A stretch of DNA of 53,209 nt from Arenimonas donghaensis DSM 18148 = HO3-R19. Lineage in GTDB: Bacteria; Pseudomonadota; Gammaproteobacteria; Xanthomonadales; Xanthomonadaceae. Shown in pieces: positions 7,243 through 36,046 of this stretch. Each line of letters starts with the position of its first letter. Position 1 is the stretch's first letter. The notes under the pieces were generated by a model. The model saw nothing but the letters and a program-made list of their open reading frames with translations, was not told the DNA's origin and did no database searches. The stretch covers positions 1 to 53,209 of the forward strand of contig NZ_AVCJ01000049.1 in the NCBI RefSeq assembly GCF_000743535.1, in the 5' to 3' direction. Made by a program: the position numbers and the translations under genes.

Positions 7243-10008
7243 ATGGACAAGAGCTTCGAGCCCAGCACCTTCGAGACCAAGTGGTACGCCCATTGGGAGT
7301 CCACCGGCTGCTTCATGCCTTCCGGGAAGGGCCAGCCCTACACCATCATGCTGCCCCCGCCGAATGTGACGGGCACCCTGCACATGGGCCACGCCTTCCA
7401 GCACACGCTGATGGACGCGCTCGTGCGCTACCACCGCATGCGCGGCCACGACACGCTCTGGCAGGTGGGCGCGGACCACGCCGGCATCGCCACCGAGATG
7501 GTCGTTTCCCGCAACCTCGCGCTCGAGGGCAAGGGCGAAACCCGCGACTCGCTCGGCCGCGACAAGTTCATCGAGAAGGTCTGGGCCTGGAAGCAGGAAT
7601 CCGGCGACACCATCGCCCGGCAGATGCGTCGCATGGGCGCCTCGGGCGACTGGAGCCGCGAGCGCTTCACGATGGACGAGGGTCTGAGCAAGGCCGTCGT
7701 CGAAACCTTCGTGCGCCTTCATGAGGAAGGCCTGATCTACCGCGGCCAGCGCCTGGTCAACTGGGACCCGGTGCTCAAGACCGCCATTTCCGACCTCGAG
7801 GTCGTCAGCGAGGAAGAAGACGGCAAGCTCTGGTCGATCCGCTACCCGCTGCCCGACGGCGGCGAAGTGGTCGTGGCCACCACCCGCCCGGAAACCATGC
7901 TCGGCGACACCGCCCTGATGGTGCACCCGGAAGACGAGCGCTACACCCACCTGGTCGGCAAGCGCGTGAAACTGCCGCTGTCCGACCGCGAGATCCCGGT
8001 CATCGCGGATGACTACGTCGACCGCGAGTTCGGCACCGGCGTGGTGAAGGTGACCCCGGCGCACGACTTCAACGACTACGCCGTCGGCCAGCGCCACGGC
8101 CTGCCGATGATCAACATCCTCACGCCCGACGCGGCGATCAACGACAACGCCCCGGAAAAATACCGCGGCCTGGATCGTTACGCCGCGCGCAAGGCCGTGC
8201 TGGCCGACCTGGAAGCCCAGGGCCTGCTGGTCGAGGAGAAGAAGCACAAGCTGCAGGTGCCGCGCGGTGACCGCACCGGTCAGGTGATCGAGCCCTACCT
8301 GACCGACCAGTGGTTCGTGAAGATGGACACGCTGGCGGCGCGCGGCCTGGAACTGGTCGAAAACGGCAGCGTGCGCTTCGTGCCCGAGAACTGGATCAAC
8401 ACCTACCGTCACTGGATGGGCAACATCCAGGACTGGTGCATCAGCCGCCAGCTCTGGTGGGGCCACCGCATTCCGGCCTGGTACGACGCCGCCGGCAAGG
8501 CCTACGTCGGCCGCGACGAAGCCGAGGTGCGCGCGAAGCACGCACTCGGCGCCGACGTGGCGCTGACCCGCGACAGCGACGTGCTCGAGACCTGGTTCTC
8601 GTCCTCGCTGTGGTCGCACAGCACCCTGGGCTGGCCCGACGCCGCCGACATGGAGAAATACGGCTACGCCAAGCGACTGCCGACCTCGGTGCTGGTGACG
8701 GGTTTCGACATCATCTTCTTCTGGGTGGCCCGGATGATCATGATGACCGACCACTTCACCGGCGAAGTCCCGTTCAAGGACGTCTACATCACCGGCCTGG
8801 TGCGCGACAAGGACGGCCAGAAGATGTCCAAGTCCAAGGGCAACGTGCTCGACCCGATCGACCTGATCGACGGCATCTCGCTCGACGACCTGGTGGCCAA
8901 GCGCACCAGCGGCCTGATGAAGCCGACCGACGCGCCGAAGATCGAAAAGGCGACGCGCAAGGAATTCCCGGAAGGCATCCCGGCCTTCGGCGCCGACGCG
9001 CTGCGCTTCACCTTCGCGTCGCTGGCCACCCACGGCCGCGACATCAAGTTCGACCTGGCGCGCTGCGAGGGCTACAAGAACTTCTGCAACAAACTGTGGA
9101 ACGCCGCCCGCTTCACGCTGATGAACTGCGAGGGCTTCGTGGGAGGGACTTCAGCCCCGAAACCCAGCACCGACGCCGAGCGCTGGATCCTGCACCGCTT
9201 CAACGCGATGCTGCGCGAGGTCGAGAAGGCCTATGCCGACTACCGCTTCGACCAGGCGTCGCAGGCGCTGTACGAGTTCGCCTGGAACGAATTCTGCGAC
9301 TGGTTCCTCGAGCTGGCCAAGCCGGCGCTGCAAAACGCCGACGCCGATGCCGCGGCCGCCGACAGCACGCGCCACACCCTGCTGTTCGTGCTCGAGGGCC
9401 TGCTGCGGGCGCTGCACCCGGTGATCCCGTTCGTCACCGAGGAAATCTGGCACGCGGTCGCCCCGAAGCTGGGCATCACCGCCGACACGATCAGCACCCA
9501 GGCCTGGCCGGAAGCCAAGGCCGGCTTCGACGCCCCCGACGCCGCGGCGGACATCGAGTGGCTCAAGTCCGCCGTGACCCAGCTGCGCTCGATCCGCAGC
9601 CAGATGAACATCGCGCCCTCGAAGGCCGTGCCGCTGCTGCTCCAGGGTGGCGATGCCAGCGACCAGGCGCGCACGAAGCGCCACGCCGCGTCGCTGAAGT
9701 TCCTGGCGCGCCTGGAATCGATCGACTGGCTCGACGGCGACGCACCCGCCGCCGCGGCCGCGGTGCTGGGCGACCTGAAGCTGCTGATCCCGTTGGAAGG
9801 CCTGATCGACCTGGACGCCGAACGCACGCGCCTGGACAAGGAACTCAAGCGCATCGCCGGCGAAATCGCCAAGTGCGAAGCCAAGCTCGGCAACACGACC
9901 TTCGTGGACAACGCCCCGCCCGCAATCGTCGACACCGAACGCGGCCGCCTCGCCGACTGGACCCGCCAGCATTCGGCGCTGCAGTCGCAACGGTCCAAGC
10001 TGGGCTGA
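7243..10008 (+). CDS. valS: Valyl-tRNA synthetase
   Basis: Charges tRNA-Val with valine and edits mischarged threonine. The 921-residue class Ia enzyme starts at the ATG giving [10 protein letters not shown]; the frame is open about 66 bases further upstream, but that stretch lacks homology-like sequence. The HIGH motif is HMGH (47-50) and KMSKS is at 527-531. The editing domain lies between them, with [16 protein letters not shown] as its signature. The C-terminus is the usual coiled coil ([16 protein letters not shown]). Residues 633-640 (VGGTSAPK), at the junction to the anticodon-binding region, are encoded by a 22-base half copy of the palindromic repeat found at 22775. The gene converges with rimI over 22 bases and no intrinsic terminator is visible there. 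Confidence 0.97.
9139..9160 (+). repeat. Half copy of a REP-like palindrome inside the valS coding sequence
   Basis: The 22 bases starting GTGGGAGGGACTTCAG match the left arm of the full inverted repeat at 22775-22839 with one mismatch (C for T at the 17th base). They lie exactly on codon boundaries and encode VGGTSAPK in ValS. No second arm follows, so this is a single unit rather than a hairpin pair. Confidence 0.75.
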
Positions 10009-22767: not shown

Positions 22768-22774
22768 GCCCTCC

Positions 22775-22839
22775 TGTGGGAGGGACTTCAGTCCCGATCC
22801 CATCGCGGCAAAAGCATCGGGACTGAAGTCCCTCCCACA
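22775..22839. repeat. REP-like inverted repeat, GGGAGGGACT type
   Basis: Two perfect 24-base arms (22775-22798 and 22816-22839) surround a 17-base loop. The left arm begins TGTGGGAGGGACTTCAG. It lies between etfD and the ATP-grasp gene and ends nine bases before the latter's ATG. The arms resemble the GTAG-ended palindromes of Stenotrophomonas and related REP elements moved by RAYT transposases. In RNA it would be a very stable hairpin that could protect the etfD 3' end or limit translation of the next gene. Confidence 0.9.
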
Positions 22840-22848
22840 AGACTGGAA

Positions 22849-23715
22849 ATGATGAAACTCGCGCTTGCAACCGCCATCGCTGCGCTTTCGCTGGACGAGG
22901 ACCTGGTGCCGCTGCACCAGGCCTGCCTGGCCGCGGGCATCGACGCCCAGGTGATGGCCTGGGACGACCCGACGGTCAGCTGGGCGCGATTCGACGCCGT
23001 GCTGCTGCGCTCGACCTGGGACTACATGGACCGGCTGCCGGAATTCCTGGCCTGGTGCGACCGCGTGCAGTCGGTGTCGCGGCTGTGGAACCCGCCCGAG
23101 GTGGTGCGCTGGAACACCGACAAACGCTACCTCGGCGACCTCGCCCAGCGTGGCCTGCCGGTGATCGAAAGCCACTTCCTGGCACCCGGCGAAGACCCTG
23201 CATCCCTGCCCGACCTCGAGGAATTCGTGGTCAAGCCCACCGTCGGTGCCGGCTCGCGCGATGCCCAGCGCTACCAGCGCAGCGAGCGCGAAGCCGCCCT
23301 CGCCCACGCCAGGCGCCTGCTCGATTCCGGCCGCCACGTGCTGGTGCAGCCCTACCTGCACGCGGTGGACGAGCACGGCGAAACCGCGCTGCTTTTCTTC
23401 GAAGGCCAGTACAGCCACGCCATCCGCAAGGCGCCCCTGCTGCGGCGCGGCGAAGGCCCGACCCGCGCGCTGTTCAAGGAAGAACACATCCAGGCGCGTG
23501 AACCCTCCGATGCCGAACACGCGCTGGCGGCCAGCGTGCTGGCCAGCCTGCCCTTCGACACCCTGGCCTACGCCCGCGTCGACCTGCTGCCCTCGCCCAC
23601 CGGCCCGCAGCTGCTGGAACTGGAACTCACCGAGCCCTCGGTCTTCCTGCCCTACGGCGAAGGCGCCGCCGCCCGATTCGCCCAGGTCCTCGCCGCCCGC
23701 CTGGGTGACCTGTAG
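22849..23715 (+). CDS. ATP-grasp enzyme, DcsG-like
   Basis: The 288-residue protein has an ATP-grasp layout. The N-terminal domain has LLRSTWDYMDRLPEFLAWCD and WNTDKRYLGDLAQRGLPVIES. The nucleotide-binding segment is FVVKPTVGAGSRDAQRY, and the Mg-binding C-terminal part is YARVDLLPSPTGPQLLELELTEPSVFL. This arrangement matches proteins annotated as RimK/glutathione-synthase-like and DcsG (the D-cycloserine-forming enzyme). A carboxylate-amine ligation is expected; the substrates are unknown and no cycloserine genes accompany it. Its last codon and TAG stop lie in the left arm of a palindromic repeat, so the repeat defines the C-terminus. Either of two adjacent ATGs could start it. Confidence 0.8.
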   Translation: MMKLALATAIAALSLDEDLVPLHQACLAAGIDAQVMAWDDPTVSWARFDAVLLRSTWDYMDRLPEFLAWCDRVQSVSRLWNPPEVVRWNTDKRYLGDLAQRGLPVIESHFLAPGEDPASLPDLEEFVVKPTVGAGSRDAQRYQRSEREAALAHARRLLDSGRHVLVQPYLHAVDEHGETALLFFEGQYSHAIRKAPLLRRGEGPTRALFKEEHIQAREPSDAEHALAASVLASLPFDTLAYARVDLLPSPTGPQLLELELTEPSVFLPYGEGAAARFAQVLAARLGDL

Positions 23716-23789
23716 GAGCGCCTTCAGGCGCGAATCCCTTCTTTGCCAAAGGCGAAGTCAAAAGATTCGCGCCTGAAGGCGCTCCTACA
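23711..23789. repeat. REP-like inverted repeat, GTAGGAGCGCC type (copy 1)
   Basis: Perfect 26-base arms (23711-23736 and 23764-23789) flank a 27-base loop. The left arm begins TGTAGGAGCGCCTTCAGG. The TAG of GTAG at 23713-23715 is the stop codon of the ATP-grasp gene, and the right arm ends eight bases from the end of convergent cysNC. It could act as a shared mRNA 3' structure for both genes, although neither side has a T-tract. Confidence 0.92.
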
Positions 23790-23797
23790 TTTGCCGC

Positions 23798-25762
23798 CTA
23801 GCCGAGGAGACGGGTGATGACGCGCGCCGCCATCGCTTCGGCCGACTCCTCGCCGCCGGCGAGGTGGATCTCCGGATGCTCCGGCGCCTCGTAGGGCGAA
23901 TCGATGCCGGTGAAGTTCTTGATCTTGCCGGCGCGCGCCTTGGCGTAGAGGCCCTTGACGTCGCGGCGTTCGGCGTCCGCCAGCGGCGTGTCCACGAACA
24001 CCTCGAGGAATTCGTCCTGGGGGAACAGTTCGCGGGCCATGCGCCGCTCGGCCCGGAACGGCGAGATGAAGCTCACCAGCACGATCAGGCCGGCGTCGGT
24101 CATCAGTCGCGCCACTTCGGCGACGCGGCGGATGTTCTCGACGCGATCCTCGTCGGTGAAACCCAGGTCCTTGTTCAGCCCGTGGCGCACGTTGTCGCCG
24201 TCGAGCAGGTACGTGTGGTAACCCTTGGCCAGCAGCTGCTTTTCGACCAGGTTGGCGACCGTGGACTTGCCGGCGCCGGACAGGCCGGTGAACCACAGGC
24301 AGCGCGGCGACTGGCCCTTGATGCGCGAGCGCGCCGCCTTGTCCACTTCCAGCGGCTGCCAGTGGATGTTGGCCGAGCGTCGCAGGGCGAATTCAAGCGT
24401 GCCGGCGCCGACCGTGGCATTGGACTGCCGGTCGATCAGGATGAAACCACCCAGCGCGCGATTGTCGCGATAGGCCTCGAAGGGGATGGCCTGGTCCAGG
24501 CCCAGGTTGCAGTAGGCGACTTCATTGAGCTCGAGCGACTTGGCCGCCAGCTGCGCCTGGGTGTTCACGTCGACCTTGTGCTTGATCTCGGTGACCTGAG
24601 CGCTGACGGTGCGCGCGCCGATCTTGAGCCAGTACGGCCGACCCGGCAGCAGCGGCGCGTCGCCCATCCACAGCAGGTGGGCGGCGAACTGGTCGGCCAC
24701 CTGCGGCGCGGCGTCGGCGGCGGCGATGACGTCACCGCGGCTCACGTCCACTTCGTCGGCCAGGGCCAGGGTGATGGCCTGGCCGGCGCCGGCCCGTGGC
24801 AGGTCGCCGTCGGCGGTGACGATGCGCGCCACGGTCGAACGCCGCCCCGAGGGCAGCACCACCACCGCGTCGCCCGGGCGCACCTCGCCGGCGGCGATGG
24901 AGCCGGCGAAGCCGCGGAAGTCCTGGTTCGGCCGGCAGACCCACTGCACCGGCAGCCGGAAACCGACTTCGCTGCCGTCCCGGCGCGCGTCCACGGTTTC
25001 CAGGTGTTCAAGCAGGCTGGGGCCGGTGTACCAGGGCATCGCCGCCGAGGCGCCGGTCATGTTGTCGCCCCGCAGCGCCGACAGCGCAATCGCCTGCACG
25101 TGCGGGATGTCGAGCTGTTTCGCCAGGTCGGCGTAGCCGGCGACGATATCGTCGAATACCGCCTGGTCGTAGCCCACCAGGTCCATCTTGTTCACCGCCA
25201 GCAGCACGTGGCGGATGCCCAGCAGCGAAACGATGTAGCTATGCCGGCGCGTCTGCGTCAGCAGGCCCTTGCGCGCGTCCACCAGCACCACGGCAAGGTC
25301 GGCCGTGGAGGCGCCGGTGGCCATGTTGCGGGTGTACTGTTCGTGGCCCGGGCAGTCGGCGACGATGAACTTGCGCCGGTCGGTGTCGAAGAAGCGGTAA
25401 GCGACGTCGATGGTGATTCCCTGCTCGCGCTCGGCCGACAGGCCGTCGACCAGCAAGGCGAAGTCGATGCCCTCGCCCTGGGTGCCGTGGCGGCGGCTGT
25501 CGGCTTCCAGCGCCGCAACCTGGTCGTCGAACAGGCGCTTGGTGTCGTGCAGCAGCCGGCCAATCAACGTCGACTTGCCGTCGTCGACGCTGCCGCAGGT
25601 GATGAAGCGCAGCAGGCCCTTGGTTTCGTGCTGGCGCAGGTAATCAGCAACCAACGAGGCTTTTGTAGGAGCGCCTTCAGGCGCGAAGCCTTTGTCTTCG
25701 GCAAAGGAAGGATTCGCGCCTGAAGGCGCTCCTACAGGGGTGACGGGCTTGTCGGTGGCCAT
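23798..25762 (-). CDS. cysNC: CysN/CysC: sulfate adenylyltransferase large subunit fused to APS kinase
   Basis: With CysD this 654-residue protein makes APS (GTP-driven) and phosphorylates it to PAPS. The CysN GTPase has GSVDDGKST (57-65), DCPGH (136-140) and NKMD (191-194). The APS kinase domain begins near residue 490, with GLSGAGKST at 493-501, [15 protein letters not shown] and [10 protein letters not shown]. The ATG overlaps the cysD stop by one base (TGATG). Residues 9-33, before the GTPase core, are encoded by a complete palindromic repeat (25664-25736). They form an Ala/Pro/Gly-rich extension that I do not expect in homologues. PAPS also feeds sulfotransferases, and one is encoded at 45227-48517. 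Confidence 0.96.
25664..25736. repeat. REP-like inverted repeat inside the cysNC coding sequence (copy 2)
   Basis: Arms of 24 bases (25664-25687 and 25713-25736) are identical to the outer parts of the arms at 23711-23789. The 25-base loop also resembles the loop of copy 1 in reverse orientation. On the coding strand both arms and loop are read without a stop as residues 9-33 of CysNC ([10 protein letters not shown] ... FAPEGAPT). The message will carry a strong hairpin about 26 bases after the start codon. Confidence 0.93.
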
Positions 25763-26673
25763 CAGAAATAGCCCTCCTGCTTCTTCTTTTCCATCGACGC
25801 CGACGGGTCGTGGTCGATTACCCGGCCCTGGCGTTCGGAGGTGGTGGCGACCAGCATCTCGGCGATGATCGCCTCGAGCGTATCGGCCTGCGATTCGATC
25901 GCACCGGTCAGCGGGTAGCAGCCCAGCGTGCGGAAGCGCACCTTGCGCATCTGCGGCGTCTCGCCGTCGCGCAGCGGCATGCGCGCGTCGTCGACCATGA
26001 TCAGGCTGCCGTCGCGCTCGACCACCGGCCGCTCGGCGGCGAAATAGAGCGAAGGCACCGGGATCTTCTCGCGGTAGATGTAGAGCCAGACGTCGAGCTC
26101 GGTCCAGTTCGAGATCGGGAACACGCGCACGCTTTCGCCCTTGTGGATGCGGGCGTTGTAGAGGTTCCACAGCTCCGGGCGCTGGGTTTTGGGATCCCAG
26201 CGGTGCTGGGCACTGCGGAAGGAGAACACGCGCTCCTTGGCCCGGGACTTTTCCTCGTCGCGGCGGGCGCCGCCGATGGCCGCGTCGAAGCCCCACTTGT
26301 CCAGCGCCTGCTTCAGGGCCTGGGTCTTCATCACGTCGGTGTGCACGGTGGCGCCGTGGCTGAAGGGGTTCACGCCCTGGGCCTTGCCCTCGGGATTGGT
26401 ATGGGTGTGCAGTTGCACGCCGGTTTCGGCGGCGCGGCGGTCGCGGAAGGCGATCATCTCGCGGAACTTCCAGCCGGTGTCCACGTGCAGCAGCGGGATC
26501 GGCGGCCGGGCCGGCGCGAAGGCCTTCACCAGCAGGTGCAGCAGCACCGAGCTGTCCTTGCCGACCGAATACATCATCACCGGGTTGCGGAACTCGGCCG
26601 CGACCTCGCGCAGGATGTGGATCGATTCGGCCTCGAGGCGGTCGAGGTGGGACAGGGTGTCGGCGGCAATCAT
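25762..26673 (-). CDS. cysD: Sulfate adenylyltransferase small subunit CysD
   Basis: This 303-residue catalytic subunit of ATP sulfurylase belongs to the PP-loop ATP pyrophosphatase family. The pyrophosphate loop is SVGKDSS (36-42) in the family-typical [18 protein letters not shown]. Further hallmarks are [36 protein letters not shown] and [13 protein letters not shown]. It forms a complex with CysN for assimilation of sulfate to APS. A TATACT box lies 27 bases before the ATG, and the SLC13 permease gene ends 52 bases upstream on the same strand, so cysDNC may be transcribed both with the permease and from its own promoter. Confidence 0.97.

Positions 26674-36045: not shown

Positions 36046-36046
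<1 letters not shown>

Follow-up and report, generated by a model that had tools for sequence, protein, structure and literature searches.

Introduction

Small mobile elements that come to be translated have been reviewed (PMC2229807), and include the Rickettsia palindromic elements, which lie in frame in conserved proteins. For GTAG REPs, the text of a 2013 study (PMC3733652) describes in-frame copies within conserved proteins, over half of them being dimers or groups that encode 20–30 amino acids, and reports that recB carries different REPs at nearly the same point in two species of Xanthomonas. REPs are otherwise said to overlap coding regions seldom (PMC12306157), and REPINs were described in 2011 as hairpin units made of two inverted REPs and present in extragenic space in many copies (PMC3116915). 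In Xanthomonas, a GGGAATC heptamer is often found as inverted pairs and often near stop codons, and in the two species examined 7–11% of the heptamer repeats lie wholly or partly within genes (PMC4692102).

Translated palindromic repeats are a known kind of event, and cysNC is a striking new case. Whereas the REPINs described in PMC3116915 are extragenic, here one copy lies in coding sequence. Compared with the Rickettsia elements as presented in PMC2229807, the cysNC insert is situated in a tail ahead of the protein fold, and the likeness is drawn from their description. Term searches of the main texts of PMC3733652 and of PMC4692102 found no occurrence of cysN. Within the main texts of the open-licence literature, we found no paper linking cysN with a REP sequence or with a Xanthomonas N-terminal extension, and, in the same part of the literature, no description of several repeat families at one overlapping gene junction with two alternative outcomes.

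Results

A REPIN is read in frame ahead of the CysNC fold

Features of the window, i.e. of the whole stretch of 53,209 nucleotides that was analysed, are collected in Table 1. The cysNC frame runs on the minus strand from its ATG (25762) to its stop (23798) with no interruption. Pfam places GTP_EFTU at residues 51–251 and APS_kinase at 487–634, and the alignment with the solved CysN chain 1zun_B spans residues 39–456. Since the GTPase domain starts at residue 51 and 1zun_B at residue 39, the insert is placed ahead of the known CysNC fold.

Table 1. Coordinates of the features discussed, numbered along the window.
Feature	Position	Strand	Remarks
cysD, 303 aa	25762..26673	-	Pfam PAPS_reduct 30-257
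Shine-Dalgarno AGGAGG	25773..25778	-	within cysD 3′ end, 10 nt ahead of cysNC ATG
cysNC ATG	25760..25762	-	shares bases with cysD stop as TGATG
cysNC, 654 aa, GTPase subunit of sulfate adenylyltransferase fused to APS kinase	23798..25762	-	translation, Pfam, 1zun_B alignment
REPIN, two inverted GTAG-type REPs, 73 bp	25664..25736	-	read as CysNC residues 9-33
Hairpin 5′ arm in mRNA, 24 nt	25713..25736	-	begins 26 nt after A of ATG
Hairpin 3′ arm in mRNA, 24 nt	25664..25687	-	
Second REPIN of the cysNC class	23711..23789	.	between convergent genes, ORF 22849-23715 and cysNC

The initial annotation had reported a palindrome translated near the N-terminus of CysNC; its coordinates and reading frame were correct, both arms falling in the open frame. 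The arms match perfectly over 24 bases, or at 97% over 29 nt with 15 nt between them. The predicted RNA fold of the region has an energy of −73.9 kcal/mol (z −8.0), a value equalled by none of 200 dinucleotide shuffles. Folds of the G017, G005 and G089 junctions had been cut at different positions and were left out as controls. GTAG at the REP end and a short internal palindrome are both seen (GTAGGAGCGCCTTCAGGCGCGA). With its inverted REP doublet, short spacer and many near-identical genomic copies, the element has the attributes of a REPIN, except for the usual extragenic location, the copy here being inside the frame of cysNC. That trait was not used to exclude it from the REPINs, because intragenic REPs have already been described in the text of PMC3733652. 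By its sequence, CysNC is also a putative REP-decorated protein: the insert is in frame and free of stops, in a conserved protein whose close homologues lack it. A chance palindrome at this position is ruled out by the z-score and by the genomic copies, which make up 40 REPIN pairs.

Copies of the element and RAYT-type genes in the source genome

A search of the source genome (G000) with a 121-base stretch returned 79 matches, among them the query and hits in either orientation; of 84 candidates, 40 were scored. The 40 REPIN pairs, for which up to 4 mismatches per arm were allowed, were located in the fetched loci and in the window. Outer GTAG to outer GTAG, the length is 77 nt in 28 of the 40 and 71 nt in the cysNC copy; a GCGGC/GCCGC variant is present on one or both arms of 8 pairs. 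Exact REPs of this class number 45 forward and 46 reverse. The cysNC copy was the only one of the 40 judged intragenic, a judgement made from open frames and GC content at codon positions, with nine frames read by eye; at three loci (L278, L280, L295) the frame of the downstream gene is open through the REPIN, and the start was taken after it without a homology test.

Three Y1_Tnp matches were found in this genome. One, a RAYT-type gene at C1:111662-111988, is flanked by REPINs of the cysNC class at C1:111497-111572 and 112115-112190, a position which suggests that this RAYT mobilises the class. Another, at C8:16823-17089, lies amid exact copies of a second REP class, GTGGGAGGGACTTCAGTCCCGA, present genome-wide in 91 forward and 81 reverse exact copies.

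The related intergenic copy close to the end of cysNC, also reported initially, is real, and its 26-nt arms are 100% complementary. Its GTAG end contributes the TAG stop, at 23712-23715, of the ORF 22849-23715; GTAG ends supplying stop codons have been reported for other REPs in the text of PMC3733652. A pair of second-class REPs is found at 22772-22842, between two genes. Elsewhere in the window, valS contains at 9139-9160 a single REP-like 22-mer, in frame and with one mismatch to the second REP class, which is read V-G-G-T-S-A-P in the frame also used by the cysNC insert of G007 (see below). The ValRS of 1gax is shorter by 3 residues at this site.

Two genomes of the genus carry different REP classes at the same position

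In the genus of the source genome, probably Arenimonas, 24 of 27 genomes gave a match and 22 had a readable cysD-cysNC junction. A REP insert is missing from 20 of these 22 junctions, G000 and G007 being the two carriers, so that the presence/absence comparison proposed with the initial annotation has an answer: the nearest relatives, by genus junctions and by CysN tree, do not have the segment. The distance from the cysD stop to the conserved core is 155 nt in G000 and 137 nt in G007, and 56–77 nt in 19 of the 20 insert-free junctions. The last of these, in G002, measures 116 nt and holds no strong inverted repeat (score 6).

The G007 insert is also in frame. It belongs to another REP class, GTAGGAGGGACTTCAGTCCCGA, amplified in the G007 genome, and is read VGGTSVPKPFAESFGTEVPPT. 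Counted from the A of the ATG, the REPIN of G000 begins after 26 nt and that of G007 after 23 nt; in G007 the predicted stem reaches further outwards. Exact copies of the G000 class occur in 8 of the 27 genus genomes and of the second class in 7; G000 is rich in both, and G007 has one exact copy of the G000 class.

On a tree of the CysN core, the nearest to G000 are G005 and G012 and the nearest to G007 is G017; none of these three has an insert. The insert label needs two changes on this tree, and a single change suffices in 0% of 200 bootstrap trees. We considered whether one ancestral insertion might account for both carriers, the REP class having later been swapped by conversion from the active class of each species, with loss elsewhere. 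The shared position and the similar MAT(D/N)KP ahead of the insert speak for it, as does a possible remnant of a REP end in G017: the junction of this sister of G007 contains TCCCACAGGG, which resembles such an end, and an older insert may possibly have been lost there. Against a common insertion, G000 and G007 are in different clades, each with nearer CysN relatives that have no insert, and one origin needs several losses because 20 of the 22 readable junctions are without insert. We hold a single insertion to be quite unlikely.

Survey of the junction in the family

A CysN match was found in 336 of the 395 genomes searched. The 150 junctions that were read are not a random draw: they comprise the best matches listed, the genus, 16 deliberately added genomes of group g18 and the pattern hits G204 and G057. 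The last two, from a second pattern survey, proved to be plain short junctions, and in G041, from the first pattern survey, the gene upstream is not cysD. A cysD stop was located in 148 of the 150 junctions, related genomes among which are not independent events.

Junctions of at least 110 nt from the cysD stop to the core were called long, and inverted repeats scoring at least 14 were called strong. By these thresholds, strong repeats are present in 39 of 70 long junctions versus 0 of 78 short ones, 32 of the 39 being in an open overlapping frame and 7 not. Leaving aside the over-sampled, Xanthomonas-like g18, 19 of 38 long junctions score at least 14. When each long junction was compared with 60 shuffles, p was at most 0.05 in 56 of 70, and 14 of 70 did no better than shuffles (p over 0.1); the lengthening is therefore not always a repeat. 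In all, 31 of the 70 fall below the threshold of 14. The initial annotation had considered that all homologues might carry an unrelated extension of the same length. This is not so, as 78 of the 148 junctions leave some 16–32 residues before the LLRF core.

Many relatives carry a similarly long in-frame CysNC extension, made mostly of other inverted repeats, whose types were assigned by visual inspection. Group g18 is probably Xanthomonas; each of its 32 genomes has an in-frame junction of the long type, measuring 161 nt in 29 cases, that holds arrays of the heptamer GGGANTS and its inverse, with GGGACCS in G236, G287 and G364. Scores reach at least 14 in 20 of the 32, and G350 and G195 do no better than shuffles. 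These arrays share their unit with the GGGAATC heptamer of PMC4692102, the difference from what is described there being that in the g18 genomes read they fall inside the open frame of cysNC. Similar arrays, there with GTGATTS units, are found in 6 of 12 g11 genomes, and others in G068 (g43), G271 (g45), G139 and G276 (g16), and G042, G115 and G224 (g17). The sequences at the junctions of G140, G295, G335, G354, G304 and G235 resemble other dispersed repeats. In three genomes of g17, probably Pseudoxanthomonas (G088, G277, G311), pairs of unlike REPs scoring 10–11 stand between the cysD stop and the apparent cysNC start, which is likely, judging from their sequence, to be downstream of the pair.

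In ten g18 genomes, the heptamer pattern occurs after a TGATG 0 to 15 times per genome, a count that takes in overlapping hits and, in several genomes, the hit of cysN itself. An array unique to cysN within its genome is thus rejected, and sites other than cysN have been invaded as well. Ahead of cysN in a Phenylobacterium MAG (L064) stands a repeat-like string, LIPAKAGIQ; repeats at this gene may therefore reach beyond the family.

The initial annotation was right that a duplicated REP-type palindrome lies in frame at the CysNC N-terminus; that this is unusual is less well supported, given the intragenic REPs already described and the recurrence of repeats at this junction.

The start codon of cysNC

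The repeat might in principle be untranslated, with CysNC starting downstream and the REPIN being in effect intergenic. The text of PMC3733652 gives reason to consider this, since it regards most of the REPs at ORF 5′ ends in P. putida, C. koseri and S. maltophilia as possibly non-coding, and G088, G277 and G311 seemingly start after their REP pair. N-terminal cases of several species were doubted in that study; the cysNC start differs from them in being backed by the TGATG overlap. Upstream, an ATG preceded by AGGAGG begins a frame that continues through the repeat without a stop. The sole in-frame start candidate downstream of the REPIN in G000 is the TTG of codon 37, which has no Shine-Dalgarno match, and in G007 there is no ATG, GTG or TTG in the 75 nt before the core. 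An internal start after the repeat, which would have contradicted the initial annotation, was rejected on these grounds for both genomes, and we consider an untranslated repeat highly improbable.

The same signals were scored throughout the family. An overlapping start open to the core and preceded by a Shine-Dalgarno match of at least 4 nt was found in 132 of the 148 junctions. Among long junctions, 54 of 70 are open from the overlapping start through to the core; their length is 2 modulo 3 in every case, which follows from their definition and carries no evidence. No ATG, GTG or TTG occurs within 75 nt ahead of the core in 48 of these 54, and the other 6, G000 included, have a near-core candidate with no Shine-Dalgarno match. 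The 16 junctions without an overlapping frame each have an ATG or GTG past the last in-frame stop. The candidate nearest the core has a Shine-Dalgarno match in 6 of the 16 and none in 10, and for this reason the downstream starts are less certain. Repeats in an open frame are apparently translated, and elsewhere the start apparently lies downstream.

Comparison with the scoA-scoB junction

A single control junction was used, scoA-scoB of the same window, which also has a TGATG overlap (position 36046). It was parsed in 65 of the 70 genomes fetched: 51 have the two-base spacing, 4 have spacers of 144–312 nt, and the rest have 4–41 nt. Both junctions were parsed in 44 genomes; among these, 27 have a long cysD-cysNC junction (scoring at least 14 in 18 of the 27), and 1 has a scoA-scoB spacer that exceeds 60 nt. 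This contrast mixes tolerance with targeting, because the ScoB N-terminus is conserved, the matches listed beginning at residue 1. A hairpin-like stretch was seen in the spacer ahead of scoB in G008 (L372), a genome outside the 65 parsed.

Does the hairpin have a role?

The hairpin could have been kept because it paces ribosomes or adjusts CysD:CysNC coupling, repeats of different families having been recruited for this purpose. The finding of several classes of inverted repeat at one place agrees with such a role, and so do some properties of the g18 arrays. A stem of 27 pairs in 29 g18 sequences shows standard pairs in 84.3% of its cells, a figure that leans upwards because the register is the best fixed one picked on these same 29 sequences. 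Stem cells changed on both sides number 26 versus 16.2 +/− 2.7 in shuffles, and the covariation score is 0.085 versus 0.049 +/− 0.007 (0 of 500 shuffles as high in either case); relatedness of the sequences inflates covariation scores, and shuffles can be exceeded without constraint.

Other observations point the opposite way. The number of pairs with two-sided changes in the g18 stem was not above that in shuffles (305 of 500 as high), and one pair is broken in 25 of the 29 genomes, another in 17. The RNAalifold consensus fold of the g18 arrays was poor, the probable reason being that such arrays are able to pair out of register. In G088, G277 and G311 the repeat is upstream of the likely start. 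A hairpin is not generally required at the junction, because 78 of the 148 family junctions are short and have no such strong inverted repeat. The g18 covariation is a weak sign of hairpin function. This modest signal is compatible with a hairpin that tunes translation, as the initial annotation had suggested, and we judge it unlikely that the hairpin was kept for such a role. Equally doubtful to us is a broader version, in which many members of the family would be under selection for a coding hairpin past the cysD stop/cysNC start overlap that couples translation, and selfish palindromes unrelated to one another (two GTAG REPIN classes, heptamer arrays and others) would have been domesticated independently, compensatory changes in the arms preserving the hairpin as the tail drifts.

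Discussion

The explanation that we favour, and think likely, is that a REPIN moved by a RAYT was inserted in the tolerant front end of cysNC, at a junction that is a recurrent landing site for palindromic repeats in the family. A RAYT-type transposase would bring the REPIN to the site between the overlapping cysNC start and the conserved core. An insert that keeps the frame and has no stop would be tolerated, lengthening the CysNC tail, because all that this stretch encodes is a variable tail in front of the conserved fold. Where the frame is lost through the insertion, which is apparently the case in sister genera, a start codon a short way downstream would take over. With these two outcomes, in-frame reading and downstream start, the junction would behave as a recurrent and tolerant landing site. 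The sequences themselves show that the repeats are present, in frame and recurrent, that the genus tree requires no fewer than two changes, and that both outcomes occur. On our reading, the RAYT would be the mover, the repeat would be translated in the cell, and the insert would be nearly neutral.

This one junction constitutes a natural series: sites with no insert, repeats from different families that are in frame, and repeats with the start codon after them. The series allows one to ask whether mobile palindromes in operon junctions are merely tolerated or have been turned useful, and it bears on the origin of new N-terminal protein sequence from mobile DNA.
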